Program-made: the position numbers and the translations under genes
Shown: piece after piece, positions 1-13,146 of the stretch
Position numbering within the stretch: the stretch's first letter is position 1
Layout of the letters: each line of letters opens with the position of its first letter
Source of the DNA: Phycisphaerae bacterium
GTDB lineage: Bacteria > Planctomycetota > Phycisphaerae > Sedimentisphaerales > Anaerohalosphaeraceae
Assembly (NCBI GenBank): GCA_021736615.1
Contig: JAIPFN010000157.1
Location: forward strand, 1 to 13,146
DNA length: 13,146 nt
Direction: 5' to 3'
Notes under the pieces: model-generated
Told to the model about the DNA's origin: nothing
The model's input: only the letters and a program-made list of their open reading frames with translations
The model's database searches: none

Positions 1-1
1 C

Positions 2-685
2 ATTAACAAAGACAAGGATCAGAGCTATTTTATTTATGGGATTCCGGCGGCGAAGGTCGAGCATCTGTATCTGCCGCTTGGCGGGCTGACAAAACCGCAG
101 GTTCGCGAGATTGCCGCGGGGATCGATCTTGGCGTTGCAGAAAAGGCCGAGAGTATGGAGCTTTGTTTTGCAGGCGAAGGTGACTATCGCGATGCGCTTG
201 GATTGGACAATGCCGATAGCGAAGGTGATCTGGTTGACATGCAGGGCAATAAGATCGGCACGCATAAGGGAGTGGCAAACTATACGCTGGGCCAGAGGCG
301 AGGGCTTGGGTTCGCAGCCGGTGAGCCGGTTTATGTCGGCAGGATCGACCCGGTGAAAAATATTGTCGCTCTTGGCACGCGCGATGAGGTTACGGAGAAA
401 AAGGTTGCCTCTGAAGAAACGAATGTGCTTGTTGCCGATGAGCTTTTTGTCGGGGCGAAACTATTTGGAAAGATTCGGTCGGGCGGCGATCCGAGGGGAT
501 GTGTTGTTACGGAGGTTAGTCCTTGGAAAAAAGGGGACAGGTACAACCTGCCTTCGGCAGAACGTAGCCAGTCCCCCTTTTTCAGTGTTGATTTTGACGA
601 GCCGGTGTTTGCGCCTTGTCCGGGTCAGCGGATCGTTTTGTATAATGAGTCGGACCATGTTATCGCCGGCGGGGTTATTGTTTGA
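2..685 (+). CDS. mnmA: tRNA-specific 2-thiouridylase MnmA, 3' part (5' end outside the window)
   Basis: MnmA uses ATP to activate U34 of the Lys, Glu and Gln tRNAs in the cytoplasm and replaces its 2-oxygen with sulfur. The 227 visible residues match the C-terminal part of the family: KDQSYF near the left edge, PLGGLTKPQVREIA, the second catalytic cysteine in MELCF (residue 55 of the fragment), then HKGVANYTLGQRRGLGF, PVYVGRID and the closing barrel with VDFDEP, PGQRIVLYN and AGGVI. Family members are usually about 350-380 residues, so the ATP-binding PP-loop domain lies to the left. One oddity is a segment of about 20 residues, beginning PWKKGDRYNLPSAERS, just before SVDFDEP. It is encoded by a REP-like palindrome and keeps the frame (see the repeat at 526-583). 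No terminator is visible before the next gene, 54 bases on. Identification is firm; whether the inserted protein is active is not known. Confidence 0.93.
   Translation: MNKDKDQSYFIYGIPAAKVEHLYLPLGGLTKPQVREIAAGIDLGVAEKAESMELCFAGEGDYRDALGLDNADSEGDLVDMQGNKIGTHKGVANYTLGQRRGLGFAAGEPVYVGRIDPVKNIVALGTRDEVTEKKVASEETNVLVADELFVGAKLFGKIRSGGDPRGCVVTEVSPWKKGDRYNLPSAERSQSPFFSVDFDEPVFAPCPGQRIVLYNESDHVIAGGVIV
526..583. repeat. REP-like palindromic element inside mnmA
   Basis: The outer arms are 526-544 and 564-583. The left arm reads GAAAAAAGGGGACAGGTAC and the reverse complement of the right arm reads GAAAAAGGGGGACTGGCTAC: two mismatches and one single-base gap. Inside is a second perfect stem, CTGCC (548-552) and GGCAG (556-560), with loop TTC, flanked on both sides by AAC. 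Such two-level palindromes with GGGGAC arms resemble REP sequences mobilised by REP-associated tyrosine transposases (my recollection of the class, not searched). It sits wholly within the mnmA reading frame and adds no stop codon. Confidence 0.8.
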
Positions 686-724
686 GGCTTTTGAGCGTAA
701 TTATGGACATGAGGTACATGAAGA

Positions 725-729
725 AAGGA
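725..729 (+). promoter_or_regulatory. Ribosome binding site that decides the oxidoreductase start
   Basis: AAGGA lies 10 bases before ATG 740 but only one base before the in-frame TTG at 731. The spacing favours ATG 740, so the first three codons of the longer frame are probably not translated. Confidence 0.6.
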
Positions 730-739
730 CTTGAAGATC

Positions 740-1969
740 ATGAAGAAAAATAAAGGTGAGAAAAACGTTAGTATTACTCGCAGGGGTTTTATTGCTGGAG
801 CGGCTGGGGGGCTTGCGGGTTTTTCTATTATGAAGCCTTCGTTGGCTAAGGGGTTTTCGGCTAACAGTAAGATCGAGGTTGGATTTGTGGGTTTTGGCGG
901 GCGCGGCAGTTTGATTGCCCGTTTGATGACCGCCAATCACAAAGGGTACCGGATCGTGTCGGCGGCCGATTATTTTGACGGTGTCGTCCAGGAAGCCGGT
1001 GAGAAATTCAATGTGGCAAAGAACCGGCGCTTTTCCGGGCTGAATAGTTATAAGAAAGTTATTGACAGCAAGGTCGATGCGATGTTTTTTGAGACGCCGC
1101 CATGTTTTTTCCCGGAGCATGTCGCAGCCGGTGTCGACGCGGGGTGTAATGTTTATTTCGCCAAGCCGGTTGCCTGCGATGCTGCGGGGACTTTGTCGAT
1201 ACTCGAATCCGGTAAAAAGGCTACGAAAAACAAGCAGGTCTTCCTGATCGATTTTCAGGTGCCGACCAACGAGTTCAATATTGAAACAGTCAAACGCTGT
1301 CATGAAGGTCAGATCGGTAAAGTCGGGATGCTTAGCACTATTTATTGCGATGAGGCTTTTCGTGATCCGCCGAAGACGGAAAATATCGAGAGCCGTCTGC
1401 GGCATCTTGTCTGGGTTAACGATTTGGACCTTGGCGGAGGTTATCTGGTCAATGCGGGCATACACGGCGTCGATGCCGGGCTGTGGGTCGCAGGGGCAAG
1501 GCCCGTAAGTGCTATGGGGTCATCGCGGCAGGTTGCAAAGCATAACGGCGACAGCCGGGACGCTTATTCGATAACCTATCAGTATGAAGACGGGCTTGTG
1601 CACAATCATCGCGGCGAGCATATTCGCAATACGCATGGGTTTACGTGCCGGTGTATGGCGTGGGGCGATGCGGGCTATGCCGAGATCGGTTACACCGGAC
1701 AGGCCTGGCTGCGCGGCAATAAGGGGCGTTATGTTGGCGGTGAAATTAAGGGGCTTTACAATGCGGGCATTGAATATAACCTCAGCAAATTTGAAAAGGC
1801 TATCCGGGAGAAAAACTTTGAAAATGATACGCTGCAAAGAGGCGTCGACAGCAACCTGGCGGTGATACTGGGCAGAGAGGCCGGCATGCGGAATGGGTTG
1901 CTTACGATGGAAGAGTTGATCAAGGAAGACAAGAGGTATGAGGTCGATACGACAGGGCTAAAGACATAA
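740..1969 (+). CDS. Tat-exported Gfo/Idh/MocA family oxidoreductase
   Basis: This is a 409-residue NAD(P)-dependent oxidoreductase of the Gfo/Idh/MocA type, a family acting mostly on sugars, inositols and their derivatives; the substrate cannot be told from sequence. The N terminus has a twin-arginine signal (SITRRGFIAGAAGG, residues 11-24), so it should be exported folded with its cofactor. A Rossmann nucleotide-binding motif, GFVGFGGRGS, follows at residues 48-57. The family's EKP motif appears as AKP (141-143), keeping the lysine but not the glutamate. The usual GGG...G.H..D segment is present (GGGYLVNAGIHGVDAGLW, with H242 and D245). Length is normal. It starts 54 bases after mnmA with no promoter seen between them, so read-through is possible, though no functional link is evident. 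Tat-exported members are common in planctomycetes, often in carbohydrate use. Family firm, substrate unknown. Confidence 0.9.
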   Translation: MKKNKGEKNVSITRRGFIAGAAGGLAGFSIMKPSLAKGFSANSKIEVGFVGFGGRGSLIARLMTANHKGYRIVSAADYFDGVVQEAGEKFNVAKNRRFSGLNSYKKVIDSKVDAMFFETPPCFFPEHVAAGVDAGCNVYFAKPVACDAAGTLSILESGKKATKNKQVFLIDFQVPTNEFNIETVKRCHEGQIGKVGMLSTIYCDEAFRDPPKTENIESRLRHLVWVNDLDLGGGYLVNAGIHGVDAGLWVAGARPVSAMGSSRQVAKHNGDSRDAYSITYQYEDGLVHNHRGEHIRNTHGFTCRCMAWGDAGYAEIGYTGQAWLRGNKGRYVGGEIKGLYNAGIEYNLSKFEKAIREKNFENDTLQRGVDSNLAVILGREAGMRNGLLTMEELIKEDKRYEVDTTGLKT

Positions 1970-1973
1970 CGCT

Positions 1974-2089
1974 TTTTTGAATATCCAACATCCAACAAGG
2001 AATATCGAATTACGAAGTAAAAGCGTGCAGGCCTGATTGTTTTTCATTGGTTGTTGGTTATTCCTTGTTCGCTATTGGATATTCAAAAA
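1974..2089. repeat. 116-bp intergenic dyad element (long imperfect hairpin)
   Basis: The element is symmetric about 2031.5 with no indels. Perfect outer arms of 15 bp (1974-1988 and 2075-2089, TTGGATATTCAAAAA) are followed by a symmetric five-base mismatch zone, then perfect inner arms of 11 bp (AACAAGGAATA at 1994-2004, TATTCCTTGTT at 2059-2069). AAAA at 2019-2022 faces TTTT at 2041-2044, and the centre is the palindrome CAGGCCTG (2028-2035). By my count 44 of 58 opposed positions are Watson-Crick pairs. It begins five bases after the oxidoreductase stop. No T-tract follows either arm, so it is not a classic terminator. It resembles a family of palindromic intergenic repeats I associate with planctomycete genomes. 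Confidence 0.8.
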
Positions 2090-2090
2090 G

Positions 2091-2354
2091 TCAAAAGCGG
2101 CTTCTTCTACCGATAGAAATTTTATTTGGTAATTTTTCACTGCCTACCTATTAACAAAAAATGCACATACTGCAGGCATCAAATGTCATGATAAACCCTG
2201 AATTGTCAAGCGTACTGTAAAGCGTTGTGGATGTAACTTTCTTGTTGGTAATAGTTTAGAGGTTTGAGCTTGTTCTGGTATAGCTTTTGCTATGTATTTG
2301 TTTAGTATTGATAAAGCAAAAGTTACTTCATGGCTGGAAAGGAGATTCCATTCT
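2091..2354. other. Intergenic stretch without a recognisable gene
   Basis: This AT-rich leader lies before the lipoprotein gene. I see no good pair of -35 and -10 boxes at normal spacing and no hairpin with a T-tract. The in-frame ATG at 2292 falls here but has no Shine-Dalgarno sequence. Confidence 0.5.
2338..2344 (+). promoter_or_regulatory. Strong ribosome binding site that decides the lipoprotein start
   Basis: AAAGGAG is 10 bases upstream of ATG 2355. The earlier in-frame ATG at 2292 has no such site, and starting there would put 21 extra residues before the export signal. ATG 2355 is therefore preferred. Confidence 0.75.
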
Positions 2355-3353
2355 ATGTGCGAAAAACTAAAAGATAAAAGAAAAATAAACCTGTCATCAG
2401 TGCATCTTCTTTTATTTATATCAAGCGGATTGATTCTTACTGTTTATTGCTCTGGCTGTAGGGTTATCTCTCAGTCAATTGCTGAACCAACTCCCGGCAA
2501 GAGCAGCGGAATGGTTTGTTTTTCTGAGGACAGTTCAAAGGTCGTTTTTATATGGCAGGAATACTGGTGCGACATTTCTATGAACCAGAACCTGATGAAA
2601 CGCAATGAATACCTGTATTGGTGCGATGTCAGAAACGTCGGCAAACTCAAACACGTTAAGGTCGGCAGTCAGGGCAAAGAAGCAGCGAGGTGGGGTTACA
2701 GTGTAGTGAGCAGTTTTAGTTCATCTCCAAATGCAAAATATGCTGCCGTTGAATTCCAGGGCAAACTGTCTATGGTCGATCTGGAAACGGGTAAGACAAT
2801 GAAATTACCGTTGGAAGGACGGATTGATGTTAAAGGTTACATATGGCTAAACGATAGGGAAATAGCGTATGGAAGATGGTATGAAGATGAGGCATGGCGT
2901 TATTTGGTCTATAATGTTGAACAGGACAGAAAGAAAATTGTCCCTGTAAAAGAAGCTTTCTGGTATCCACAGGAACGTCAAGGGCCGAGAAATCTTTTAC
3001 CATCAATTGCATGGGTTGATAGAGAGCAAGGAGACCGGCTTAGAGAAAATGCACAAAAACAAGGGTTCTTTCATGGCGCAAAACATCTGAGTTTTTTTAA
3101 AGCGCCTATTGCATCATGGGTAGGGATGCGAGAGATTCTCCCAACGCACAAAGAACAATTTTATGCTCTAAAAATTGGCGGCAGCGATGAAATATTAAAA
3201 AAGGTCCGCATTGGCAATTTAGTGACACATGTTAACACATTTGCAATTTCACCGGATGGTCGTTGGTTTGCTACTGTTGAAAATAGTTTCTTGACCGGGC
3301 CTAAGGTCCGGGTTTATGAGATTAACATTCCAGTGAATGAAAATGTCTACTAG
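2355..3353 (+). CDS. Probable lipoprotein with beta-propeller-like sequence, function unknown
   Basis: The gene is not recognised. The 332-residue product starts with a basic stretch (KLKDKRK) and a hydrophobic segment at about residues 13-31, then YCSGC. Cys35 after SG could be a lipid-attachment cysteine, although the residue at -3 is Cys rather than the usual Leu. The rest has short strand-rich units like those of TolB/WD40-type propellers: VCFSEDSSKVVFIW, SSSPNAKYAAVEF followed by LSMVDLETGK, and near the C terminus FAISPDGRWFATVE with VRVYEINIP. There are no obvious catalytic motifs. It is convergent with the PQQ-type propeller gene, 26 bases away, and ends in its own terminator. It appears richer in A and T than its neighbours by eye, which could mean a separate origin. 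A periplasmic or membrane-attached scaffold role is a guess from fold alone. Confidence 0.75.
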   Translation: MCEKLKDKRKINLSSVHLLLFISSGLILTVYCSGCRVISQSIAEPTPGKSSGMVCFSEDSSKVVFIWQEYWCDISMNQNLMKRNEYLYWCDVRNVGKLKHVKVGSQGKEAARWGYSVVSSFSSSPNAKYAAVEFQGKLSMVDLETGKTMKLPLEGRIDVKGYIWLNDREIAYGRWYEDEAWRYLVYNVEQDRKKIVPVKEAFWYPQERQGPRNLLPSIAWVDREQGDRLRENAQKQGFFHGAKHLSFFKAPIASWVGMREILPTHKEQFYALKIGGSDEILKKVRIGNLVTHVNTFAISPDGRWFATVENSFLTGPKVRVYEINIPVNENVY

Positions 3354-3359
3354 TTGATG

Positions 3360-3393
3360 ATGTTGGCAGGATGCCAACATTACGGATTTTTTT
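3360..3393 (+). terminator. Rho-independent terminator of the lipoprotein gene
   Basis: ATGTTGGC (3360-3367) pairs perfectly with GCCAACAT (3373-3380) over the loop AGGAT. A run of seven T lies six bases further on at 3387-3393. It works only for the plus strand, and it overlaps the stop codon and last codons of the convergent gene at 3380. Confidence 0.7.
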
Positions 3394-4855
3394 GCTTTAT
3401 AGCGAAGAGGCGTTTTTGGGTTGGCAGGTATAGTGTTCCTTTGTGGGTTATTGGTGTTATTGCTTCTGATTTTAGTTTTGATCTGCTTATGACTTGTTTT
3501 TGTTTGCCAGCCTTTAGAATCCACAGGACCTTTGATTCTGTGCTTATGTATACTTTTCCATCGGTGACGAATGGGGAGGCGGACCAGGTTCCGGCTTGCA
3601 TGTCGTGGGTCCAGTAAAGCTCGCCGGTGTCTGCGTCGAAGCAGTGGAGGTTGCCAGTGTAGTCCGAGATGTACAGCAGGCCGTCTGCGATTGCCGGCTC
3701 GGCGGTGGTTCTGTCTACCTTTTTTGATTCCCATATCTTTTTGCCGGTCGCTGCGTCTATGCAGGTTAGCATTCCCTGGCCGGGGCCGTGGATGGGGCTT
3801 TGGCCTATGGGCACGAAAATCCTGCCGTTATGGACGGCGGGGATGGAGATGATCTCGCTCGGGCCTTCGGGGGTGCGTTTTCTCCATGAACAATATCGCT
3901 GTGGTTTGCCGTCTTTGAAGCGGTACTCGGCGGGGTTACAGTCGTATTGCCATAGTTTTTTTAGTGACTGGGGAGTGTCTTCTGTTTTGGTTACAGGTTC
4001 GAATGCGTACAGGATTCCGTCGCCGCCTCCGAATAGTATAATGGTTTTGCCGCCGGCCTCTGCCTTTACCGGTGACGACCAGTTGCAGTGGAATGAGTTT
4101 TTGCTTATTCCTTCATTTTCGATGGCGGCGAGTTTGCCGGTGTTTTTGTCCAGTACGATCAGTGCCGGTGCGTTTGGTTTTACGATATACTCGTGTCCGC
4201 CGTCCTGGCCGTTGGAGGTGCATGCGTAGAGGTAGTCGCCGACGAGAAGCGGGGTGGAACCGCAGACGTCGTGGGGGGTGATGTCGACGCCGGTTAGCAT
4301 GTCGTACTGCCAGATTATGTCGCCGTCTGTTTTCTGGAGTTTGTAGTCGGCGGGTGTTTGCATGTATTGGGCTTCTGTTTTGAACGGGCCGTCGTTGCCG
4401 TCTGTCTGGCCGTTGCGGTCGATGCAAAGGACGTCTCCGCGCGGGCCTACGATGTAGAGTCGTTTGCCGTCGAAGACCGGTTGTGAGCAGACGCCGCATC
4501 TCCAGATGTTGAAATGGGCCGGGTTAACCCGGCCTGCTCTGTTACGGGGGATGGGCAGCTGCCATACCATTTTGCCGGTGTCCGGATCAAGACGCATGAG
4601 GATACCCCCGCCGGTTTGTTTGACGGCCGGGTGCTCAAGATTGCGGTCGTCGATACCGATAAAGAGTTGGCCCTGGTCAATAATCGGGATGGTGTACTGG
4701 TGCGAACCGAGTTTGATCTCCCATAAGAGATCGCCTGCGTCGAAAGCGTCGGGCAGTGCCGAATATTCGGTCTCGGCTTTGATGGACAAAACGTTAGTAA
4801 GCAGAGTAATTACAAAAACAACTAATACGGCTTTATTGGACTTCGCACAGGTCAT
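3380..4855 (-). CDS. Secreted PQQ-type (BamB-like) beta-propeller repeat protein
   Basis: The 491-residue protein has a signal peptide at about residues 1-27 (hydrophobic VLVVFVITLLTNVLSIKA). Its body is made of PQQ-type propeller blades, each with a strand pair around a 'W/Y-x-A/D-x-DxxTGK-xxW' core: LMRLDPDTGKMVWQLPIP, GDVLCIDRNGQ, LIVLDKNTGKLAAIE, LTCIDAATGKKIWESKK and LHCFDADTGELYWTHDM are clear blades, and the C-terminal units ISTESKVLWIL and LPTQKRLFAIK probably close the ring. Blades alternate with 'P-x-x-x-x-G-x-L/I-Y/F' strands (TPLLVGDYLYACTS, EPAIADGLLYISDY). No quinoprotein dehydrogenase catalytic residues or haem motif are seen, so it is likely a scaffold or binding protein outside the inner membrane. 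ATG 4855 is preceded by GGAAGG at suitable spacing. The ligand is unknown. Confidence 0.85.
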   Translation of the reverse strand: MTCAKSNKAVLVVFVITLLTNVLSIKAETEYSALPDAFDAGDLLWEIKLGSHQYTIPIIDQGQLFIGIDDRNLEHPAVKQTGGGILMRLDPDTGKMVWQLPIPRNRAGRVNPAHFNIWRCGVCSQPVFDGKRLYIVGPRGDVLCIDRNGQTDGNDGPFKTEAQYMQTPADYKLQKTDGDIIWQYDMLTGVDITPHDVCGSTPLLVGDYLYACTSNGQDGGHEYIVKPNAPALIVLDKNTGKLAAIENEGISKNSFHCNWSSPVKAEAGGKTIILFGGGDGILYAFEPVTKTEDTPQSLKKLWQYDCNPAEYRFKDGKPQRYCSWRKRTPEGPSEIISIPAVHNGRIFVPIGQSPIHGPGQGMLTCIDAATGKKIWESKKVDRTTAEPAIADGLLYISDYTGNLHCFDADTGELYWTHDMQAGTWSASPFVTDGKVYISTESKVLWILKAGKQKQVISRSKLKSEAITPITHKGTLYLPTQKRLFAIKQKNP

Positions 4856-4916
4856 TTGATACCTTCCGACTATTCTTTGCTGGTAATGGTTTCTAATAGT
4901 TTAACCCTAATTTGGC

Positions 4917-4945
4917 AGCTTAACAGAAAAGAGCCAGGTTTTCAA
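4917..4945 (-). promoter_or_regulatory. Candidate promoter of the PQQ-type propeller gene
   Basis: On the minus strand, TTGAAA (4940-4945) lies 17 bases before TAAGCT (4917-4922). The -10 box is poor but is preceded by TG in extended -10 position. It is about 60 bases upstream of the start codon. This is a weak prediction. Confidence 0.3.
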
Positions 4946-4963
4946 GGAAATCTAATGTAAATG

Positions 4964-4995
4964 AAAAAGGCGTAACCTTTTTTGGCTACGCCTTT
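4964..4995 (-). terminator. Rho-independent terminator of the GLUG repeat gene
   Basis: AAAGGCGTA (4966-4974) and TACGCCTTT (4987-4995) form a nine-bp stem, extended inward by CC/GG around a run of six bases. Read on the minus strand the stem ends in a run of five T. It lies 23 bases after the stop of the gene at 5019. Confidence 0.8.
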
Positions 4996-5018
4996 GTTGC
5001 ATTGTACTCTATTTGCTG

Positions 5019-6824
5019 TTATTTCTTTTTTTGTTCTTGTGGTTTTTGGATGCGGACGTAGTCTGTTGCTTTCCACGGGTATTCGTCATCTATTAAGGTG
5101 CAGGTCAGTGTCAGTTTGATTTCGGTATTGTCGGTGGAGTTTTTAAGTTTTCCGACGGTTGCGATGATTTCATGTTTGTCGAACTTCAGGGTCAGGTCTT
5201 TTATTCCGTCTGGTATTCTACAGCATCTGTCCGGAGTTGCCGGGCATGAGACGTCTGCGTAATTGCTTCTTATCGGGGAAACGCCCTGCAGCCTGATTGT
5301 TGCGATGTCAACTTTCGAGACGTCGAATTCTTTGGTGCCGGTGATCGCGACCGTCAGCAAGCCCTTGGCGGTAACGTCAAGATCATTGAAGCAGTTGCCC
5401 GGCGTAATGTCGATAGAGATCGAAGGCGGCGGAGCAAGCATCCATTTGAAAACAGGCGGGCATTCGTTTTCATCGATTTGCCAGACTGTGTAAAAATCAA
5501 ATCCTTTGAAAGTCGCACTATTGTTCATCTGGTCGGTTGTTTTGCCAATTCCCTTACCGGAATCTCTTTGGCCGGAGTTTTCGCTATCGTAGTAACTTTC
5601 TTTGATGGAACCGGTGCTTGTGACGGGAGGTTTTTCTGGTCGTCGGACAGGCGCGCCGGATGTGCCTGTCAGGCGTTTTAAGGTCAGGGACTCATCGTTT
5701 ATTGTGTTGTTACTTCCGACCGTTGGGAGTAGTCCCCCATCTATATCTATGTGTAAATCAACATTTTTCCATTCAGCGTTTCTTGATGAGGTTGTTTTGT
5801 CAGTTCCGCAAAATCCGCCGATTCTGTGGTCGCCATTGCTGGACGAGACTTTTCCGGTTGAATAGCAATGAAGCAATGGCCCGTGATTTATTCCAACAAA
5901 TCCGCCTATATGAACAGTTCCGCTTGCGTTTCCGGTTGCATAACAGTTTGTGATCACACCTGTGGTGTTGTCACCTATGAAACCGCCTGTCTGGCCGGAT
6001 TTTGATTCGACATTTCCGGTGGCGTAACACTGGTCGATGATGTAATCGCCGCGGGTGGTGCCTCCCATAAATCCGCCGGCGTTGGAAATTGTTGAAGTTA
6101 CGTCTCCTGTTGCATAGCATTGTTTCATTGTGCCGTATGAGCTGTTGCCGACAAACCCGCCGGTGTAGCCGTAAGAACCGAACACTTCGCCGGTCGCAAA
6201 GCATCTTGTCGAAGTGCCGTTCATGATGCCGCAAAAACCGCCGGTATAGCGGTATCCTGAAACTTTGCAGGATGAACTGGAATTGATAAGCCTGGCGGTG
6301 TTACCGGTTCCTCCGCACATACCGCCGCCGTAGTAATATGCGCATGTGACCTTGCCTGACGATTTGCAGTTTATTACAGTTCCTTCCGCCAGACTGCCGA
6401 CGACAGAACCGGTTCCTTGATAGCCGCTTACTTCAACATCGCTTAAGTCAAGATTCATTATCTTACCATTGATGCCGACAGCTCCGAACAAACCGATGCT
6501 TGAATCATTGGGCCGGTTGATAAATAAACCGGTAATCTTATGCCCGCGGCCGTCGAATGTTCCGACAAATTTCTTTGTGCCGCCGTCTGCCCAGCTTCCG
6601 ACGGGCTTAAAACCCATGCCGTCATTCCAGCCGGACGTTTCGGATGCGTCAATGTTTTTTCTCAAAACATAGTTCGCGTCGAGTTCGTCAGCCATTTCCT
6701 GAAGCTGTGTGACATTTGTAATGATGTAAGGCCTGCGAAATGATCCGAGTCCGCTTCCGCTAAAACTCCATGCCGGCCCGCTCATTACCAAAATAACGCA
6801 TGCGATTAAAGCTGTTTTTCTCAT
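5019..6824 (-). CDS. Secreted GLUG repeat protein with an extra C-terminal beta module
   Basis: The 601-residue protein has a signal peptide at about residues 1-20 (ending GPAWS). After an N-terminal cap (YIITNVTQLQEMADEL, then FVGTFDGRGHKITGL) come GLUG-type repeats at about residues 110-345, each of the form 'TGGFVG....G.....CYATG.V': GGFCGIMNGTSTRCFATGEV, GGFVGNSSYGTMKQCYATGD and GGFIGDNTTGVITNCYATGN are the clearest. The repeat region closes with FYTVWQIDENECPPVFKW (about 444-461). A separate module at about 470-592 begins SIDITPGNCFNDLDVTAKG and includes TLKFDKHEI; modules of this look occur at the ends of other environmental secreted proteins, but I cannot name it. The end is lysine-rich (QKKK). 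GLUG proteins are thought to form extracellular, often adhesive, beta-solenoids. ATG 6824 is preceded by AGGAAAGG seven bases away. The ligand is unknown. Confidence 0.85.
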   Translation of the reverse strand: MRKTALIACVILVMSGPAWSFSGSGLGSFRRPYIITNVTQLQEMADELDANYVLRKNIDASETSGWNDGMGFKPVGSWADGGTKKFVGTFDGRGHKITGLFINRPNDSSIGLFGAVGINGKIMNLDLSDVEVSGYQGTGSVVGSLAEGTVINCKSSGKVTCAYYYGGGMCGGTGNTARLINSSSSCKVSGYRYTGGFCGIMNGTSTRCFATGEVFGSYGYTGGFVGNSSYGTMKQCYATGDVTSTISNAGGFMGGTTRGDYIIDQCYATGNVESKSGQTGGFIGDNTTGVITNCYATGNASGTVHIGGFVGINHGPLLHCYSTGKVSSSNGDHRIGGFCGTDKTTSSRNAEWKNVDLHIDIDGGLLPTVGSNNTINDESLTLKRLTGTSGAPVRRPEKPPVTSTGSIKESYYDSENSGQRDSGKGIGKTTDQMNNSATFKGFDFYTVWQIDENECPPVFKWMLAPPPSISIDITPGNCFNDLDVTAKGLLTVAITGTKEFDVSKVDIATIRLQGVSPIRSNYADVSCPATPDRCCRIPDGIKDLTLKFDKHEIIATVGKLKNSTDNTEIKLTLTCTLIDDEYPWKATDYVRIQKPQEQKKK

Positions 6825-6915
6825 GTCCTTGCCTTTCCTGAGCTAAATCCAATTTTGATTAAACGGTGAGTTTCAAGGATGTTTGGTTACCGAATATTTA
6901 ATAACTCCTGTTTAT

Positions 6916-6943
6916 ATTATAATTGTTATTACCATTAAATCAA
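6916..6943 (-). promoter_or_regulatory. Promoter of the GLUG repeat gene at 6824
   Basis: On the minus strand, TTGATT (6938-6943) is followed after 16 bases by a perfect TATAAT (6916-6921). Transcription would start near 6909, giving a leader of about 85 bases. Two copies of an 11-bp direct repeat lie just upstream (6968-6988). Confidence 0.6.
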
Positions 6944-6967
6944 TTAAAAAAGTGCGGGTTTGTCATT

Positions 6968-6988
6968 TTTTACAATTATTTTACAATT
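6968..6988. repeat. Two direct repeats, one helical turn apart
   Basis: TTTTACAATT occurs at 6968-6977 and again at 6979-6988, a spacing of 11 bases. The pair lies 25-45 bases upstream of the -35 box of the GLUG gene promoter, where an activator could bind. The rest of the 313-base gap (6825-7137) holds that promoter, a terminator and nothing else I can recognise. Confidence 0.4.
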
Positions 6989-7064
6989 CGCCCTTAATAG
7001 TTCTGCGGACAGGATGCCGACTGTACCCGAATATCTACCAACTTAATTAGAATTGAATCTGTTT

Positions 7065-7105
7065 AAAAAAAAACAGACGAAACCCTGGGTTTTGAGTTTC
7101 GTCTG
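7065..7105 (-). terminator. Rho-independent terminator of the sigma/anti-sigma unit
   Basis: CAGACGAAAC (7074-7083) and GTTTCGTCTG (7096-7105) form a perfect 10-bp stem with a 12-base loop. On the minus strand it is followed at once by nine T (the A-run at 7065-7073). It lies 32 bases after the stop of the anti-sigma gene. Confidence 0.92.
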
Positions 7106-7137
7106 CGATTGTTTGTTTATGCAATTTTAAAAGCCGG

Positions 7138-8745
7138 TTATTCTGCCGGGGCTACGGCTTGAGCCTCAACTGGGGCGATGGCTGGAGGATGTTCGGGGTG
7201 ATCGTCGTGGCTATGGTCTTGGCTATGGTCGTGGACCTCTTTGACTTCAGCTGGCGGTTCGGGCAGTTGTAGTTCCATCTCTACGACCTCTTCGACTGTG
7301 AAATCGCCTGTGGACAGGTCGGCGAATATTACCGTATAACCGTCCTTGTCGTTCAACCACCGCATCAGTATCATATCTTTGTCGGCTGGGGTTACTCTGT
7401 CACCGTAGTACGCCGGGTCCTTTTTCTCTGAGATAAGCGTAGCATAGAACATACAAATGCCCTGGATCTTCATCATCTCTGCGACCATTCTTTCCTGTAA
7501 TTTTTCCATGGTATTTTCCTGGACTTCAGGCAGGGTATTCGGGTCAATACCGGCAGCTTTGGCTTCTTCGATCGCTTTGTTACGAGCTTTCATTTTTTCT
7601 GCTAACTGCTTTCCACTTCTTTTGGAGACATCTGTTATTACATCCATCATACTGAGAGTCTTTGGAAACTTTCCATCGTTGAGCGGGATCAATGTTTTCA
7701 ATCCCTCGATAGCTGTATCGGCATTCATTTCCGGCATTACAAAATTAGCCATTTCTTTATAGTCATCGGGGATAACATACGCAAACTCGCTTTCGTCAAT
7801 TTCAATATCCCATTCAAACCGGTCGATAACGGCTTTCATTTCCATGTCATTTTTGCCGCCGAAATCTATTTCCATTTGGACCGGAAGGTTGGTTTCGACA
7901 TCAACCCATAACCTTCCGATACAATCAGGGAACATCCCTGCTGCCAGTTTGGGGTCATTGACTTCGATACCTTCAACTTCGACGCCGTCTATCTCTTTGC
8001 GTCCCAGCTCAACATAATCAAGCTCCATGAAATCAGCCACCATCTTCTTTGGGTCGTAAGATTCTTTTTGAGTCTTTTCACGCAGTTCATCGGTCAGGGT
8101 TATTCGCATATACTGTTTCTGTTCGGGCATAATGCTGACCATGGATTCTTCGTCAAAAAGCATGTAGATTCGAGACGCCAGTTTGCCGTCCATGGACATT
8201 TCCATTTTCATTCCGTACTCCGAGGAAGTCATGATCGTCTGGTCCATCTCCATGACCTTATCTTTTGGCAGGCCCGGCAGGCCCTTCATTGTCATGTGCA
8301 TTTTGTATCTTACTGTTTTGATCTGCTGGACACGTTCTGCCAGGGACGCCCAGGCTACGCTGCTTCCGTCCGGCGAGATTCCCAGCATATACATCCCGAG
8401 AAAGACGCCGAGGATTATTACTGCTGCTGTTGCGAATTTTGTTACTTTAGTTTGCATGATCGTTCTCCATTGAATTGTTTTGGCCGTTTTGGCCGGTTGG
8501 GTTTGGGTTTTTTCCGGCGATAGACTTGACAGCAGTCCCTCCTTCGCCGAAACATACATGTCATCATCAACCGAAACCTTCGACATCTGACCGGCACAAT
8601 CAAGTACCAGCCGCATGCTTTCCAACTCCTGCTTGCAGGATTGGCATTTTGCGATATGCTCTGCGACAATCTTAGCTTGATCAGGACTTAGATCGCCCAG
8701 TGCGTATGCCGCGAGTAAATCTTTTATTTCATTGTGGTTTGACAT
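7138..8745 (-). CDS. Membrane anti-sigma factor with zinc motif, outer LolA-like domain and His-rich tail
   Basis: The product is 535 residues from ATG 8745. Residues 1-50 form a ZAS-type anti-sigma domain with H30-x3-C34-x2-C37 (HIAKCQSC); His4 may be a further zinc ligand. One membrane segment follows at about 105-123 (ATAAVIILGVFLGMYML). The outer part, starting VAWASLAERVQQIKTVRYKM, has the strand pattern of LolA/LolB-like lipid-binding domains (similarity judged by eye). The C-terminal tail carries six histidines at 505-519 (HDHSQDHSHDDHPEHPP) and could bind metal. It follows the sigma gene directly, the usual order for such a pair, so it probably holds the sigma factor at the membrane until an outside signal arrives. 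A GTG at 8790, five bases after the sigma stop, would add 15 residues; ATG 8745, just before the zinc domain and with AGG upstream, is preferred. The signal is unknown. Confidence 0.82.
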   Translation of the reverse strand: MSNHNEIKDLLAAYALGDLSPDQAKIVAEHIAKCQSCKQELESMRLVLDCAGQMSKVSVDDDMYVSAKEGLLSSLSPEKTQTQPAKTAKTIQWRTIMQTKVTKFATAAVIILGVFLGMYMLGISPDGSSVAWASLAERVQQIKTVRYKMHMTMKGLPGLPKDKVMEMDQTIMTSSEYGMKMEMSMDGKLASRIYMLFDEESMVSIMPEQKQYMRITLTDELREKTQKESYDPKKMVADFMELDYVELGRKEIDGVEVEGIEVNDPKLAAGMFPDCIGRLWVDVETNLPVQMEIDFGGKNDMEMKAVIDRFEWDIEIDESEFAYVIPDDYKEMANFVMPEMNADTAIEGLKTLIPLNDGKFPKTLSMMDVITDVSKRSGKQLAEKMKARNKAIEEAKAAGIDPNTLPEVQENTMEKLQERMVAEMMKIQGICMFYATLISEKKDPAYYGDRVTPADKDMILMRWLNDKDGYTVIFADLSTGDFTVEEVVEMELQLPEPPAEVKEVHDHSQDHSHDDHPEHPPAIAPVEAQAVAPAE

Positions 8746-8795
8746 AATAAAACCTGCTTTACTGTACCGCCGGATAGAAGCCAACAGCACGTGTG

Positions 8796-9290
8796 TTACA
8801 AATATTCTTTAAACTCTTTTGCTAATTGCGTCAGTGCCCTGTGCATGTGTACCCTTGCTGTCTGCGGGGTGCACTCGAGTACTTCTGCGATCTGGGTGTA
8901 ACTTTTACCTTCGATACGATTCATTACGAAAACTTCCGCTTGCCGGTCGGGCAGCTTTCCTATGCAGTCGGTCAATTTGTGTTTCATCTCTGTTGTAATC
9001 GCCCTCGTGTCTGCATTGCCGGTAATAGCGGCTGGCTCGGATATTGCGTCAATGTTGCGGATTTTTCCGGATACTTTTGCATGATCTATCGCCTTGCGGA
9101 CTGCGCAGCGGTACAAATAGGCCGGCCAGCTGGTATCGCCGTTGTAACTTTCCCACCGCTGCCAGATAGCGGTAAATACATCCTGATGCACATCCTCAGC
9201 GGCGGCATAGCTGCCCAGAACACGGTAGGCAGCGTTTAAAACCAACCGACCGTGGTCGTCAACAAGTTGTGTAAATCGTTTATCCGGCAA
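8796..9290 (-). CDS. RNA polymerase sigma factor, ECF (sigma-70) family
   Basis: At 164 residues this has the length and layout of an ECF sigma factor. Region 2 includes FTQLVDDHGRLVLNAAYRVL, AEDVHQDVFTAIWQ and the promoter-melting stretch WPAYLYRCAVRKAIDH. A short linker leads to region 4: CIGKLPDRQAEVFVMNRIEG, then the helix-turn-helix SYTQIAEVLECTPQTARVHMHRAL, which reads the -35 box. The start is probably TTG 9290: an in-frame TAA lies two codons upstream, and region 2 begins almost at once, so no later start fits. AGG is eight bases upstream. The anti-sigma gene follows on the same strand, and the zinc-ribbon gene lies 106 bases upstream on the same strand. A perfect 14-bp palindrome sits 27 bases before the start. 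Sigma factors of this kind often activate their own promoter, but I cannot identify a matching box. Confidence 0.92.
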   Translation of the reverse strand: MPDKRFTQLVDDHGRLVLNAAYRVLGSYAAAEDVHQDVFTAIWQRWESYNGDTSWPAYLYRCAVRKAIDHAKVSGKIRNIDAISEPAAITGNADTRAITTEMKHKLTDCIGKLPDRQAEVFVMNRIEGKSYTQIAEVLECTPQTARVHMHRALTQLAKEFKEYL

Positions 9291-9316
9291 AGTTTACGCC
9301 TAGGTTTAATTTCCAT

Positions 9317-9330
9317 TTGGTTCGAACCAA
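9317..9330. promoter_or_regulatory. Perfect 14-bp palindrome upstream of the sigma gene, possible operator
   Basis: TTGGTTCGAACCAA is identical to its reverse complement. It lies between the TATATATA stretch near 9340 and the TTG start at 9290, a usual place for a repressor or activator site. The binding protein is unknown. A TATATATA tract nearby could hold a -10 box, but no good -35 box is spaced for it. Confidence 0.5.
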
Positions 9331-9396
9331 CGAGCTCTGTATATATAGAGGGGGGAGAGCACCGAATGTTTACAAGAAAAATATAAATTTATGATT

Positions 9397-10596
9397 TTAA
9401 TCGAATGTCAGTATTACGAATGTCAATCCCATTCCTACGAGTATCCACAGGATGTCTAGCAATCCGAATGTCTGGGCGAGGCAGAACTTAAAGGACTTGT
9501 CGGGGTCTGCGAGTATTTTCTGGTGGTCGGCCTGGGTGATTAGTTTTTCTAGAACCGGGAAATATTTTTTTGTATTTTTAAGCAGCAATTTTTCCTGGTC
9601 CCAGTCAAAGGCTATGCCCGCGGCAGTGGCAACGGCCTCTTTTTTCTCATCGCTCGATTCGGTGATTTTCGGCATGGGCGTAGATTCGCCAAGCAGTATG
9701 CTGTAATCAGTCGGTGCGGTGGTGTTCTTCAGCATCGGTATCATCCATCCCCTGGCCTTGACGGCGTCGAGGTCTCCATCGTCGATCATAGACATCATCG
9801 CGACGCATACCTGGTAAGTTCCGTTTCTTGCGTAGGGTTTTACACTTTCTGTCTGGCCCTTGCCGCCGGCTTTGGAGTCTGCGATGATCTTGTCCATGTT
9901 GACGAGAATTTCCTCGTTGGATGTTTTGACGTAGTAGGGCCTGACGGAATAATTTGCGATTGCTGCTTTGGCAGCGCCGAGACCTGCAAGGCTGATGATC
10001 AGGCCGAGCAATCCAAGCAGAACGGTTCGGTTGACCATAAAGAGCCTAAGCCCCAAAGCCGTGGCGACGAAAAGGATGATCGCGAAAAAACTGAGTACGG
10101 TCTCCGATGATCTGGACGCGGCGACCCAGATTGCCGTTGTAATGCCTGCCGCCAGCAGGCTTGTCAAAAGCGACAGCGGAAAAGCGAGCACCGGCGGGAC
10201 CATGTCGGCAAGTGACATCATCCCGGAACCGCTCTTGCCGTTTGAGTGCGATCTGGAGTGTCCTTTTTCTTTGGCCGCTTTCGGAGAGAACTTAACGGCT
10301 TTTGCTTTTCTGGAGGTCCTGTCCTGACGTGCCATCTGGATAGCCTCCATACGGCGGGCTTCTTCGTCATCCTGAAAATCTTCAAGGCCGTCGAAAATAT
10401 CGGTTTGTGGCGGGTTCGGAGCCGCAGGCATTTCCGGGGTCGGTTCGACCTTGACCGGTGCTGACTGGGCGGCAGGAGTGGACGGTTGCGGAACCTGTAT
10501 CGGCTCTTTGCACTTGCTGCATCGAACGCGGCGTCCGGCGTATTTGTCGTCAACTCCAAGCTTCTGGCTGCAATGCTTACAACGGAACTTGATCAT
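9397..10596 (-). CDS. Zinc-ribbon protein with four membrane segments, function unknown
   Basis: The 399-residue protein opens with a zinc ribbon, C6-x2-C9 and C26-x2-C29 (FRCKHCSQKL, VRCSKCKEPIQVP), a domain very typical of planctomycete membrane proteins. A Pro/Ala-rich linker (about 35-65) and a charged region (about 66-115, DDEEARRMEAIQMARQDR) lead to three membrane segments at about 134-159, 166-187 and 191-214. A soluble domain of about 160 residues follows (FDWDQEKLLLKN, YFPVLEKLITQADHQKIL) and a fourth membrane segment closes the protein at about 376-397. ATG 10596 has AAGGAG six bases upstream. No terminator is seen before the sigma gene, so the two may share a transcript. Whether it belongs to the sigma system is unproven. 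I do not recognise a specific family for the soluble domain. Confidence 0.75.
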   Translation of the reverse strand: MIKFRCKHCSQKLGVDDKYAGRRVRCSKCKEPIQVPQPSTPAAQSAPVKVEPTPEMPAAPNPPQTDIFDGLEDFQDDEEARRMEAIQMARQDRTSRKAKAVKFSPKAAKEKGHSRSHSNGKSGSGMMSLADMVPPVLAFPLSLLTSLLAAGITTAIWVAASRSSETVLSFFAIILFVATALGLRLFMVNRTVLLGLLGLIISLAGLGAAKAAIANYSVRPYYVKTSNEEILVNMDKIIADSKAGGKGQTESVKPYARNGTYQVCVAMMSMIDDGDLDAVKARGWMIPMLKNTTAPTDYSILLGESTPMPKITESSDEKKEAVATAAGIAFDWDQEKLLLKNTKKYFPVLEKLITQADHQKILADPDKSFKFCLAQTFGLLDILWILVGMGLTFVILTFD

Positions 10597-10650
10597 TGAA
10601 ATCTCCTTAAGAATTTACCCGTTAAGACGGACTTCCTCAAAGCTTAAACT

Positions 10651-10679
10651 ATTTTAACATACTATAATGTACTAAGCAA
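10651..10679 (-). promoter_or_regulatory. Promoter of the zinc-ribbon gene
   Basis: On the minus strand, TTGCTT (10674-10679) is 17 bases from TAAAAT (10651-10656), with TG in extended -10 position. It is about 55 bases upstream of ATG 10596. The rest of the 357-base gap to the next gene is AT-rich; apart from a weak candidate promoter at 10844-10874, I see nothing else in it. Confidence 0.5.
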
Positions 10680-10843
10680 CGCCGTTTTTATTCAAATTAA
10701 AATAAAGCAGCTTTGGTTTTTATCACGGAATAACCTTGTGTCAAAAGTAGGTGATTTGCTCGGAATGTAGTGAATTGGGCACGGTTAAATATATTTTCAA
10801 TAATATTAAAATTTTTTTGTAACTTTTTATAGCTTCACCCGTC

Positions 10844-10874
10844 TTGATTATAGAAGGAATGATGGGACTATATT
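10844..10874 (+). promoter_or_regulatory. Candidate promoter of the GLUG-dockerin gene
   Basis: TTGATT (10844-10849) and TATATT (10869-10874) are 19 bases apart, longer than usual. The leader to ATG 10954 would be about 75 bases. The prediction is weak. Confidence 0.3.
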
Positions 10875-10940
10875 CATTTTAATTATTTGAAGTGGGTTTC
10901 TGTTGTTAATACCAACAATTGAGTGATTAAAGGTCTTTAG

Positions 10941-10946
10941 GAAGGA
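10941..10946 (+). promoter_or_regulatory. Ribosome binding site deciding the GLUG-dockerin start
   Basis: GAAGGA is seven bases before ATG 10954, a good spacing, and four before the in-frame TTG at 10951. The ATG is taken as the start. Confidence 0.65.
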
Positions 10947-10953
10947 TATTTTG

Positions 10954-12174
10954 ATGGACAAGAATTACTTTTTAAGCTTCGCTGTACTAACCACTGCGTT
11001 ATTTCTTGTATCGTCTGTTTTCGCAGCCGGTACATACTCCGGCGGTGACGGTTTATCTGCGGGGACGGCATACCGGATCGAGACAGCCAGCGACATGCAG
11101 GAGATAGGCGCAAACGCCGATGACTGGGACAAATACTTCGTTTTGACCGCCAATATCAACCTGTCGGCGTATACCGGCGCATCGTTCAACATCATCGGCA
11201 GCGAGACAATACCATTTACCGGTGTTTTCGATGGCGGCTGCCATAAGATTGACAACTTCACCTATACATCAACCGACACGGATTATATCGCCATGTTCGG
11301 GCTGGTCGGGTATGGCGGTGTCATCAAGGATCTGGGTCTGACCAATGCAAACATTGATGCCGGAACAGGCGGCCTGGCGGGCAGCATAGCGGGTTTGAAT
11401 CTGGGCAATGTAATGAACTGCTGTTCGAGCGGTACTGTAAACGGACAGTGGTATGTCGGCGGTCTGGCAGGTGAGAATGAGGGCAGCATGACGAACTGCT
11501 ATTCGAGATGCTTTGTATTCGGAGAGTGGTATGTCGGCGGTCTGGTGGGAGATAATGTCGGCAGTGTAATGCACTGTTATTCGACCGGCGATGTTTACGG
11601 ACTGTACTCGGTCGGCGGTTTGGTTGGGATGAACGTCGGCGATGCCGGCATAACCAACTGTTATTCGACCGGCTCTGTTGAAGGAGCATACTCTATCGGC
11701 GGGCTGGTGGGCAGCAGCGGCGGCAATGCCGGCATAACGAACTGTTATTCGATTGGCTATGTATGTGGCGACTGGTATGTCGGCGGTATGGTGGGGTATA
11801 GTATCAGCTGTATAACGAACTGTTATTTCCTTGACCCTGCAGGACCGGACAATGGTTGCGGTTGGCCTCTAATCGAAGTGGCTATGAAACAGCAGGCAAG
11901 CTTTGCGGGCTGGGATTTCGATCCTGACAGCGACCGCGGTTATTGGATCAATGAGAGATTTGATTATCCCAGGCTTTACTGCCAGCCGTTTGCCGATCTG
12001 GACAATGACGGTTATGTAAACCTTTCCGACCTTGCGATCATGTCGGCAGCGCTGGGGACAAGTGCAGGCCAGGCAAATTACAACAGTGCCTGTGACCTGG
12101 CAGGCGATACGAAGATAGACACAGCCGACCTGATCGCCCTCGCCAAAAACTGGCTCGCAGGCACAACACCATAA
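10954..12174 (+). CDS. Secreted GLUG repeat protein with C-terminal dockerin-like domain
   Basis: The 406-residue product has a signal peptide at about residues 1-25 (FLSFAVLTTALFLVSSVFA). After the usual cap (SDMQEIGANADDWDKYFVLT, FTGVFDGGCHKIDNF), GLUG repeats fill about 110-295, with the pattern 'Y-VGGL-G-NxG-x-x-NCYSTG': VGGLAGENEGSMTNCYS, VGGLVGDNVGSVMHCYSTGD and IGGLVGSSGGNAGITNCYS. The repeat closes with WDFDPDSDRGYWINERFDYP. Residues about 346-402 hold two calcium-loop and helix units like those of dockerin type I (DLDNDGYVNLSDLAIMSAAL and DLAGDTKIDTADLIALAKNW), each followed by a helix. Dockerins bind cohesin domains in cellulosome-like assemblies; in planctomycetes such ends are widespread and may instead serve surface attachment. 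It is divergent from the zinc-ribbon gene and ends in a strong terminator. The partner is unknown. Confidence 0.85.
   Translation: MDKNYFLSFAVLTTALFLVSSVFAAGTYSGGDGLSAGTAYRIETASDMQEIGANADDWDKYFVLTANINLSAYTGASFNIIGSETIPFTGVFDGGCHKIDNFTYTSTDTDYIAMFGLVGYGGVIKDLGLTNANIDAGTGGLAGSIAGLNLGNVMNCCSSGTVNGQWYVGGLAGENEGSMTNCYSRCFVFGEWYVGGLVGDNVGSVMHCYSTGDVYGLYSVGGLVGMNVGDAGITNCYSTGSVEGAYSIGGLVGSSGGNAGITNCYSIGYVCGDWYVGGMVGYSISCITNCYFLDPAGPDNGCGWPLIEVAMKQQASFAGWDFDPDSDRGYWINERFDYPRLYCQPFADLDNDGYVNLSDLAIMSAALGTSAGQANYNSACDLAGDTKIDTADLIALAKNWLAGTTP
11449..11846 (+). repeat. Tandem GLUG-coding repeats
   Basis: Successive units begin at 11449, 11527, 11605, 11689 and 11773, as judged from the sequence TGGTATGTCGGCGG and its variants. 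The steps are 78, 78, 84 and 84 bases, that is 26, 26, 28 and 28 codons. The first two units are still very alike at the DNA level, which suggests recent duplication or conversion. Confidence 0.7.
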
Positions 12175-12200
12175 ACCAAAATAAATACAAAACCCAAATG

Positions 12201-12233
12201 GGCTGCAAGCATAAAAACTCGCAGCCTTTTTTT
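12201..12233 (+). terminator. Rho-independent terminator of the GLUG-dockerin gene
   Basis: GGCTGC (12201-12206) and GCAGCC (12221-12226) form a six-bp stem with a 14-base loop, followed at once by seven T (12227-12233). It begins 27 bases after the stop codon. Confidence 0.85.
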
Positions 12234-12261
12234 ACGCGCATCGTGCTGGGGTGAACGAAAC

Positions 12262-12279
12262 GACCCTTCGGGTCTTTTT
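12262..12279 (+). terminator. Second terminator-like hairpin
   Basis: GACCC (12262-12266) and GGGTC (12270-12274) enclose TTC, followed by five T. It could back up the terminator just upstream or be one of the small repeats in this stretch. Confidence 0.5.
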
Positions 12280-12414
12280 GGTAAAATTAACCCAAACCAA
12301 ACCCCTGTCATCCCGAGCAAAGGGGCAAAGGCCCGAAGAGAGCCTGTTCCGATTTATCGGGAAGGGACCTCGTGCCTCAAAAAAACGCCTCCCCTCAAAA
12401 CAACCGCACGACAT

Positions 12415-12444
12415 TTAACCCCGGGTTCACCAACCCGGGGTTAA
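12415..12444. repeat. Perfect 13-bp hairpin with CACC loop
   Basis: TTAACCCCGGGTT (12415-12427) and AACCCGGGGTTAA (12432-12444) are exact reverse complements around CACC. It directly abuts the next hairpin at 12445. No T-tract follows, so it looks like a REP-type repeat rather than a terminator. Confidence 0.8.
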
Positions 12445-12461
12445 GCACTCCGAAGGAGTGC
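12445..12461. repeat. Perfect 7-bp hairpin with GAA loop, abutting the previous one
   Basis: GCACTCC (12445-12451) and GGAGTGC (12455-12461) enclose GAA. A C-GAA-G loop is known from physical chemistry to make DNA hairpins unusually stable. It starts on the base after the preceding hairpin ends. Confidence 0.75.
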
Positions 12462-12467
12462 GCCGAA

Positions 12468-12609
12468 CCTCACAAAAACAATTACCATAAACAGAAACCC
12501 GAAGCGCAAGCGCAGGGATAAAAACTCCCACAAAAAACATTTACCTTATACAAAACACAAAAACCCCGTCATTCCCGCGAAAGCGGGAACCTTGCCTCAC
12601 AAAAACAAT
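12468..12609 (+). repeat. Direct repeat of 15 bases bounding a hairpin-bearing segment
   Basis: CCTCACAAAAACAAT occurs at 12468-12482 and 12595-12609, 127 bases apart. Each copy follows closely on a hairpin (12445-12461 and 12572-12589), suggesting one hairpin-plus-tail unit that was copied. Confidence 0.5.
12572..12589. repeat. Hairpin repeat of the TTCCCGC-GAAA-GCGGGAA type
   Basis: TTCCCGC (12572-12578) and GCGGGAA (12583-12589) form a perfect seven-bp stem around GAAA, a very stable loop type. Sequences of this form are scattered between genes in many bacteria; the dRS3 repeats of Neisseria are a well-known example. Confidence 0.75.
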
Positions 12610-13056
12610 ATCCCGTCACACAAACGCAAACCCCACCATTCATTTCAAACCTCTATTAATATTATATACCAATCCTGACCAACATGGATTCGATGGCTAA
12701 AACAAAAACATTTTTACCCATCCTATGCGACTTGTGCTAGATGTTGTATAATTATGCACCAAATCTATTCCTTAATTTTCTTTGAATGACGAAATAAACT
12801 GTGAATAAACTGTCACAGACATGTGCCGATAAAAAAAGCAACTTCTATGCAAGTAAACTAATGCCAAAGCCACCATAAATAACGAAATTGAAATTGCTTT
12901 TAAACAGCTCAAGTTGTACAGGAATGGAGTACTTATTGAGTTTAATAGAATTAGAAAGGATATACTTCTATAGAACCCGTATTTTGCTAAAAAAGGCATA
13001 TATGATCCATCTATAATACTCCCCAGAAATCAAACCATGGTATAAGGTTGTATGAT
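12610..13056. other. AT-rich stretch without a convincing gene
   Basis: This segment lies between the hairpin cluster and the promoter of the transposase gene at the right edge. The only open frame of note is a 75-codon hydrophobic one on the minus strand (12772-12999). I see no RNA gene, terminator or clear repeat. It may be decayed mobile DNA. Confidence 0.4.
12772..12999 (-). CDS. Possible small membrane protein, hypothetical
   Basis: This 75-residue frame on the minus strand is not recognised. It would have two hydrophobic stretches (about 13-31, ISFLILLNSISTPFLYNL, and 36-50, ISISLFMVALALVYL). No good Shine-Dalgarno sequence precedes ATG 12999. T-rich DNA read as codons gives hydrophobic proteins by chance, so this may not be a gene. 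Confidence 0.22.
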   Translation of the reverse strand: MPFLAKYGFYRSISFLILLNSISTPFLYNLSCLKAISISLFMVALALVYLHRSCFFYRHMSVTVYSQFISSFKEN

Positions 13057-13057
13057 G

Positions 13058-13066
13058 TGCTATAAT
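13058..13066 (+). promoter_or_regulatory. Extended -10 promoter of the transposase gene
   Basis: TGCTATAAT is a perfect extended -10 box, with the start codon 35 bases downstream. The -35 region is poor (TGGTAT at 13038-13043). An imperfect inverted repeat (ATGATG at 13052-13057, CATCAT at 13072-13077) flanks it. Confidence 0.55.
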
Positions 13067-13101
13067 TAAAGCATCATTAAGTTCTTGTAGGGGTTAGAGT
13101 T

Positions 13102-13146
13102 ATGGCAAAAAGACGGCATTTTGGTAAGGAATTTAAGGCTCGTGTG
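13102..13146 (+). CDS. IS3-family transposase OrfA, first 15 codons (runs off the window)
   Basis: The visible residues, MAKRRHFGKEFKARV, match the start of the small helix-turn-helix OrfA protein of IS3-family elements, where 'MAKRRKFT.EFKA.VALEAL' is typical. OrfA binds the element's ends and is fused by frameshift to the integrase-type OrfB to make the full transposase. GGGG lies about nine bases upstream of the ATG. I could not define the left inverted repeat of the element within the window, so its boundary is open, and the element may be incomplete. Confidence 0.6.
   Translation, partial: MAKRRHFGKEFKARV

Follow-up and report, generated by a model that had tools for sequence, protein, structure and literature searches.

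What is a long palindrome doing inside a gene for transfer RNA (tRNA) modification? The question is raised by a stretch of DNA from a Phycisphaerae bacterium, contig JAIPFN010000157.1 of assembly GCA_021736615.1, whose positions 1 to 13,146 were analysed and are called the window here. The window opens within mnmA, the gene for tRNA 2-thiouridine(34) synthase, and an initial reading made from the letters alone (the sequence-only reading) had pointed to a palindrome in that gene resembling the repetitive extragenic palindromic (REP) elements, with outer arms, an inner stem and AAC spacers, inserted in frame and lacking a stop codon. This organization was borne out. The best limits of the element are 525-583 (59 nt) rather than 526-583, because exactly that stretch recurs, identical at 59 of 59 positions, in a close relative. 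The palindrome is very probably one copy of a dispersed, non-autonomous family of palindromic elements carried by planctomycetes related to that relative, a copy that inserted into mnmA and is tolerated there as a loop of the protein.

An in-frame insertion in mnmA

The open frame that carries the palindrome matches the MnmA models NF001138 (E 3.6e-50) and TIGR00420 (4.9e-39), along with the Pfam MnmA domains. Both model scores lie under the whole-protein cut-offs (170.8 bits against 284 bits for the better model) because the start of the gene lies off the contig, leaving only a fragment to be scored. Homologues found by protein search numbered 4,422, and the best 120 of these, the window protein included, were used for comparison. 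The segment encoded by the palindrome is present in the window protein alone and in none of the other 119, and a first alignment of 25 of the 120 likewise showed it only in the window protein. Typical MnmA proteins had been said to have only a short turn at this place, and indeed the site measures 14 residues in 113 of the 120 aligned rows and 13 in one more, against 31 in the window. The five remaining homologues (P0014, P0075, P0076, P0079 and P0107) have longer segments of 18-34 residues at the same turn, with sequences unrelated to that of the window. The figure of about 20 extra residues is right for what is present (PWKKGDRYNLPSAERSQSPF) but not for the net gain, which is 17, since about three residues have been replaced.

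The closest homologue among the best 120, P0002, shares 81% identity with the window protein and is encoded by contig VRUI01000033.1 (locus L001) of MohnsGC08_bin187, called G001 here. Its mnmA supplies the empty site: over the matching stretch the gene measures 630 nt in G001 versus 681 nt in the window, a net difference of 51 nt, or 17 residues. In the MnmA chain 2der, which we take to be the E. coli enzyme, the site corresponds to a short turn that joins CTVKAL to IEVIFDEP, as located through the alignment of P0002, itself free of the insert. An AlphaFold model of the window fragment, whose five best PDB matches are all MnmA/TrmU structures, has a mean predicted local distance difference test (pLDDT) score of 65, with most barrel blocks at 88-93. 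Residues 173-193 form a low-confidence loop in this model (blocks of 67 and 52) between confident strands at 165-172 and 194-203, in keeping with the earlier idea of a tolerated loop. Furthermore, the five other lengthened homologues suggest that the turn may be permissive.

A family of palindromic elements

The suspicion that the palindrome belongs to a repeat family proved well founded. A blastn search of G001 found the element at eight distinct places with E<=6.4e-6 (matches at E 0.1 and above were left out of the count): the copy identical at 59/59 positions (L047), four full-length copies with 95-98% identity, and three further places with copies that are partial or longer. All eight (L047-L053 and L055) lie outside recognizable genes, as read from lists of open reading frames (ORFs) with no homology searches. 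L052, L053 and L055 are longer or partial variants that contain additional internal sequence around CCGTCACTGCTGCCGGGTAGACTCCC or the complement of it. Fourteen of the 59 genomes searched, G001 included, gave blastn matches. The perfect identity of the L047 copy can be set against the divergence of mnmA itself: of 94 four-fold codon sites compared between the window and G001 only 58 match, and of 204 codons 55 differ synonymously and 22 non-synonymously. The element must therefore have arrived after the window and G001 split, or else the family is kept uniform.

The element folds well, both as single-stranded DNA (-15.4 kcal/mol, z -3.75) and as RNA (-28.5 kcal/mol, z -3.41), and in neither case did any of 200 shuffles fold as well. 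An alignment was made of 54 of the 56 extracted rows; the two that were dropped are an antisense duplicate of one place (L048/L054) and a divergent row (L076). Almost no variation is seen in the core ACAGGTACAAC...GAAC.TACCAGT, and the inner stem is variable. The named structure has 23 pairs, and 88.6% of its cells pair across the 54 rows. Cells changed on both sides number 93, compared to a mean of 33.4 in shuffles, a count that none of 500 shuffles reached and that falls to a maximum of 19 when the partners are slid. At least five of the six reading frames are open in 31 of the 54 copies and all six in 16 of the 54, versus 3.1% and 0.13% of shuffles.

A covariance model built from this alignment matches the window at 524-584 with 75.4 bits, the window copy being itself among the rows that built the model. 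No second copy was found by the model in the window; its match on the minus strand, at 525-585, is the same palindrome. Among 298 genomes sampled from the class of G001, which is probably Phycisphaerae, the model matches 24 (E<=1e-3), and among 392 from its phylum it matches nine (E<=1e-5), in both cases with strict filters and with G001 counted. Weaker matches to the model are taken as related but different hairpins. A crude gene map based on codon scores places 36 of 57 copies between ORFs and nine inside an ORF, with one side unknown for the other 12.

Outside these genomes little was found. An Rfam search of window positions 450-700 gave no match up to E 5, and two exact patterns of the element had no matches in viral contigs. 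The blastn searches of plasmids and phages gave one short match each, to Paracoccus (44% covered, E 0.5) and to Microviridae (39% covered, E 0.01), and both were taken as chance. A chimeric protein query made up of element peptides matched only the MnmA of the window (28 bits, E 0.8), a search in which even a perfect 20-residue match scores too low to inform on other proteins. No published description of the family was found in a literature search, and 12-mers of the unit matched only papers on other subjects.

Table 1. Coordinates of mnmA and of the palindromic element in the window.
Feature	Position	Strand	Remarks
mnmA (tRNA 2-thiouridine(34) synthase)	2-685	+	5' end lost at contig edge; stop codon 683-685
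Palindromic element, 59 nt, hairpin with symmetric AAC/AAC internal loop, in frame within mnmA	525-583	+	
Codons of 20 residues PWKKGDRYNLPSAERSQSPF replacing about 3 residues of close relatives (net +17)	521-580	+	
Left outer arm GGAAAAAAGGGGACAGGTAC	525-544	+	
AAC, left half of symmetric internal loop	545-547	+	
Inner stem-loop CTGCC-TTC-GGCAG	548-560	+	CTGCC 548-552, TTC loop 553-555, GGCAG 556-560; stem sequence varies with compensation between copies
AAC, right half of symmetric internal loop	561-563	+	invariant in all 54 aligned rows
Right outer arm GTAGCCAGTCCCCCTTTTTC	564-583	+	

Copies within other genes

Four of the nine in-ORF copies (those of the window, L074, L092 and L120) have homologues that lack the insert. 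One of the genes concerned is a QTMAN gene, with PF12038 and a glycosyltransferase domain, which in G032 (L074/L212) carries the element between its two domains. The QTMAN gene of G321 (L213) has an element at the same site, of the same length and in frame, and this one is reversed (direct alignment 38, inverted 94). The alignment of this gene has 15 rows, from 20 loci fetched for 33 matches; 13 of the rows have no element and are 10-11 residues shorter at the site, a net gain of about 33 nt for the rows that carry it. With the site left out, L213 shares 88.1% identity with L214, which has no insert, and 83.2% with L212. The QTMAN tree is poorly supported (0.16) and gives no sign of a single shared insertion.

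A second case is a GH106-like gene, in which G009 (L120) and G019 (L092) carry an in-frame element at a common site. The element is absent from five other genomes aligned across this site (G008, G010, G014, G020 and G027), and in a sixth (G024) the site is adjoined by N's. The outer arms of the two elements are nearly identical; their inner stems differ between the genomes yet pair within each. An inversion of the inner loop is not claimed here, since the direct and inverted scores (24.0 and 25.5) do not tell the orientations apart, and only the re-pairing of the stem is retained.

Related hairpins occur in further genes, as judged from open frames and domains. Locus L180 (G076) has two of them in frame, at 1501-1567 and 1846-1912 (34.2 and 33.2 bits), within an ORF with aminotransferase and CobQ-like domains. 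One of the two lies just before SLTKFFGLPGLRLG, which we take to be the motif holding the pyridoxal phosphate (PLP) lysine. Another (39.2 bits) is in frame in a PAP2 protein at L172 (G223). The copy at L094 (G004) lies between a signal-peptide-like start and a domain. It is graded a probable insertion rather than a proven one, because the five homologues compared have unrelated linkers at this site.

The other four in-ORF copies are doubtful. At L093 the element lies just before the start of a ROK-family gene; L069 and L097 are the next two. At L098 (G004), positions 1745-2404, element copies stand beside a Fur-family stretch that aligns with 44 of the 121 positions in the Fur model and is probably a remnant.

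The genes use the element in different ways. Three sense frames are read (in mnmA, L074 and L120), as well as the antisense strand (in L213 and L094), and there is therefore no conserved peptide.

Comparison with known palindromic repeats

The sequence-only reading had likened the insertion to the Rickettsia palindromic elements (RPEs), which were reportedly described by Ogata et al. in 2000 and 2002. The likeness holds for behaviour: in mnmA, the QTMAN gene and the GH106-like gene, in-frame insertions in unrelated protein genes are absent from homologues. RPEs are palindromes inside Rickettsia genes (as given in part of PMC10969869), and in both systems a dispersed family of palindromic DNA has a portion of its copies read in frame within unrelated genes (PMC10969869, PMC3733652, in the sections that treat them). 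RPEs are credited in those sections with one conserved peptide, whereas the planctomycete unit, of about 60 nt, is read in different frames and on both strands from gene to gene. The host here is a planctomycete, and the likeness is drawn from behaviour, not from sequence. Intragenic palindromes are already known; the element described here is a new family and a new variant.

Could the element instead be a REP-type repeat with an atypical hairpin, moved by a Y1 tyrosine transposase (REP-associated tyrosine transposase, RAYT, or TnpA-REP), that happened to land in a gene? This is possible, if doubtful, and it is the alternative that survives best. The hairpin, the copy number and the many intergenic copies fit, as REPs are likewise multi-copy hairpins that are mostly intergenic (PMC3733652, in part). 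Sections of the same source report GTAG/CGTC-tagged repeats in Planctomycetes and Verrucomicrobia, and among the intragenic cases of such palindromes that they list from many bacteria are genes for a tRNA synthetase and a tRNA pseudouridine synthase. The Y1_Tnp domain (PF01797) has five matches in G001 and 35 in seven of the eight other copy-bearing genomes. Moreover, class 3 Y1 transposases, flanked by atypical structures, are placed principally in Planctomycetes, Acidobacteria and Proteobacteria by part of PMC6006769, and they may provide a lead to the mobilizing enzyme.

The details fit less well, and a REP identity in the strict sense is not supported. The 54-row alignment has no GTAG or CGTC end tag; the ends are A-rich and T-rich, and the GTAG inside the window copy recurs only in the G001 rows. 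The unit is also longer than a REP and has the symmetric AAC internal loop. Y1_Tnp loci were read with about 1.5 kb of flanking sequence where the contig allows, and of the 35 loci read (from 40 matches) just one, L154, has a full copy nearby, with a weak domain match (E 1.3e-4). The family thus has no consistent Y1 neighbour among these loci. G019 even has copies of the element but no PF01797 match, in a genome that may be incomplete.

Alternative explanations

A rather improbable possibility is that an element within a gene persists as a hairpin that template switching can invert where it stands, the site thereby encoding by turns unrelated peptides that preserve the frame; the QTMAN pair would then represent a flip of this kind, and mnmA would have been recruited recently. 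A precedent is found in yeast, where template switching at inverted repeats in coding genes homogenizes the arms and inverts the spacer (PMC8604942, in part). The re-paired inner stems of the GH106-like elements fit arm homogenization, and the opposite orientations at the QTMAN site could fit spacer inversion. That process is described in yeast in the portion cited, however, and for the planctomycete element it is only suggested. A flip at the QTMAN site is weakened because L214, which is closer to L213 than L212 is, has no insert. Separate insertions in the two genomes at a single (preferred) site would account for the QTMAN loci at least as well, and so would one insertion followed by a loss.

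It is less probable still that the insert has been kept as useful, either as a hairpin that tunes the mnmA mRNA in the manner of a pause or terminator or as a peptide that modifies MnmA. The RNA fold is strong (see above), the unit resembles a bidirectional terminator in having an A-run, a GC stem and a T-run, and a scan lists one terminator-like site on the minus strand within it. However, the same scan calls none in the sense direction at the element, and the five terminator-like sites in positions 1-2400 compare with 3.1 (standard deviation 1.8) in shuffles. The frame that is read differs from gene to gene, the QTMAN gene carries the element in both orientations, and the identity to an intergenic copy in G001 points to recency.

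The sequence-only reading had also considered that the gene might be a spare copy, with the insertion a step in neutral decay. This is very unlikely, because mnmA matches (E<=1e-30) number exactly one in 56 of the 59 genomes searched, G001 among them, and none in the other three. The frame is also open to its native stop, and the changes from G001 are mostly synonymous, an excess that cannot be dated to the time after the insertion. Least likely of all is a chimera stitched together by the assembler: dispersed repeats are classic points of misassembly and only one contig shows the insert, but both flanks belong to the same gene in the correct order and frame with only the turn replaced, a misjoin at a repeat would connect unrelated loci, and in-frame cases recur in other genomes (the QTMAN and GH106-like genes).

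How the element may enter and persist

It is established that there is such a family, that compensatory changes preserve its hairpin, that many of its copies are intergenic, and that some are read through in frame where homologues lack them. The best reading of these observations is a selfish, RPE-like palindrome that is tolerated as a loop. The simplest model is that the element moves as a unit, as its dispersed and near-identical copies suggest. The net gains in mnmA (51 nt) and QTMAN (about 33 nt) are shorter than the unit, so that some local sequence has been replaced. As for the marks of a MITE of a known transposase, terminal arms are present, and the comparisons of filled and empty sites in these two genes show this local replacement with no clear target-site duplication. 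Three circumstances would have let the mnmA insertion survive: the frame in use runs through the element with no stop, the gene grew by a multiple of three nucleotides, and the landing site is a tolerant turn of the C-terminal barrel. More generally, insertions within genes may persist only with a length change divisible by three and in a tolerant turn or linker, the inserted peptide itself presumably having no selected function. In copies within genes, template switching during replication may restore the match between the arms, and switching between the arms would account for the re-paired stem of the GH106-like elements.

Several points weigh against this reading. Only a single contig shows the mnmA insertion (P0001 has one member, from one contig), and the insert data need not imply that the MnmA encoded by the window is functional. 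Movement is something that we infer, as no transposase is linked to the element and no target-site duplication is established. Homologues that were tested and proved empty are available for few of the copies within genes: the linker around L094 is variable, and L069, L093, L097 and L098 are in genes by crude scoring only. Two of the five covariation measures are less marked; pairs with a double change number nine versus 8.6 in shuffles (reached by 269 of 500), and further pair types number 32 versus 27.5 (reached by nine of 500). The common descent of the copies means that neither the covariation counts nor the open-frame counts are independent. When the window copy is shuffled as a palindrome, five open frames are reached in 10.4% of cases, and the window row itself, read together with its flanking bases, has only four of six frames open. 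Together with shared descent, these figures make frame openness a loose property of the family.

Other features of the window

Another long palindrome, with 58-nt arms that are 76% complementary, occupies positions 1974-2089, just after a Gfo/Idh/MocA-like gene. One of the G001 copies of the element, L049, lies at the centre of a long palindrome that resembles this one by eye. Large ORFs with repeated Gly-Gly/Cys-Tyr motifs are found at 5019-6824 (minus strand) and 10951-12174 (plus strand), and the latter contains direct DNA repeats of 84-96 nt.

Significance

In a planctomycete lineage distant from Rickettsia, palindromes that are compatible with a reading frame enter protein genes, those for tRNA modification among them. 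The mnmA gene looks single-copy in relatives. With empty and filled sites available in related genomes, and one site occupied in both orientations, the entry of palindromes into coding sequence, and their later fate, become testable.
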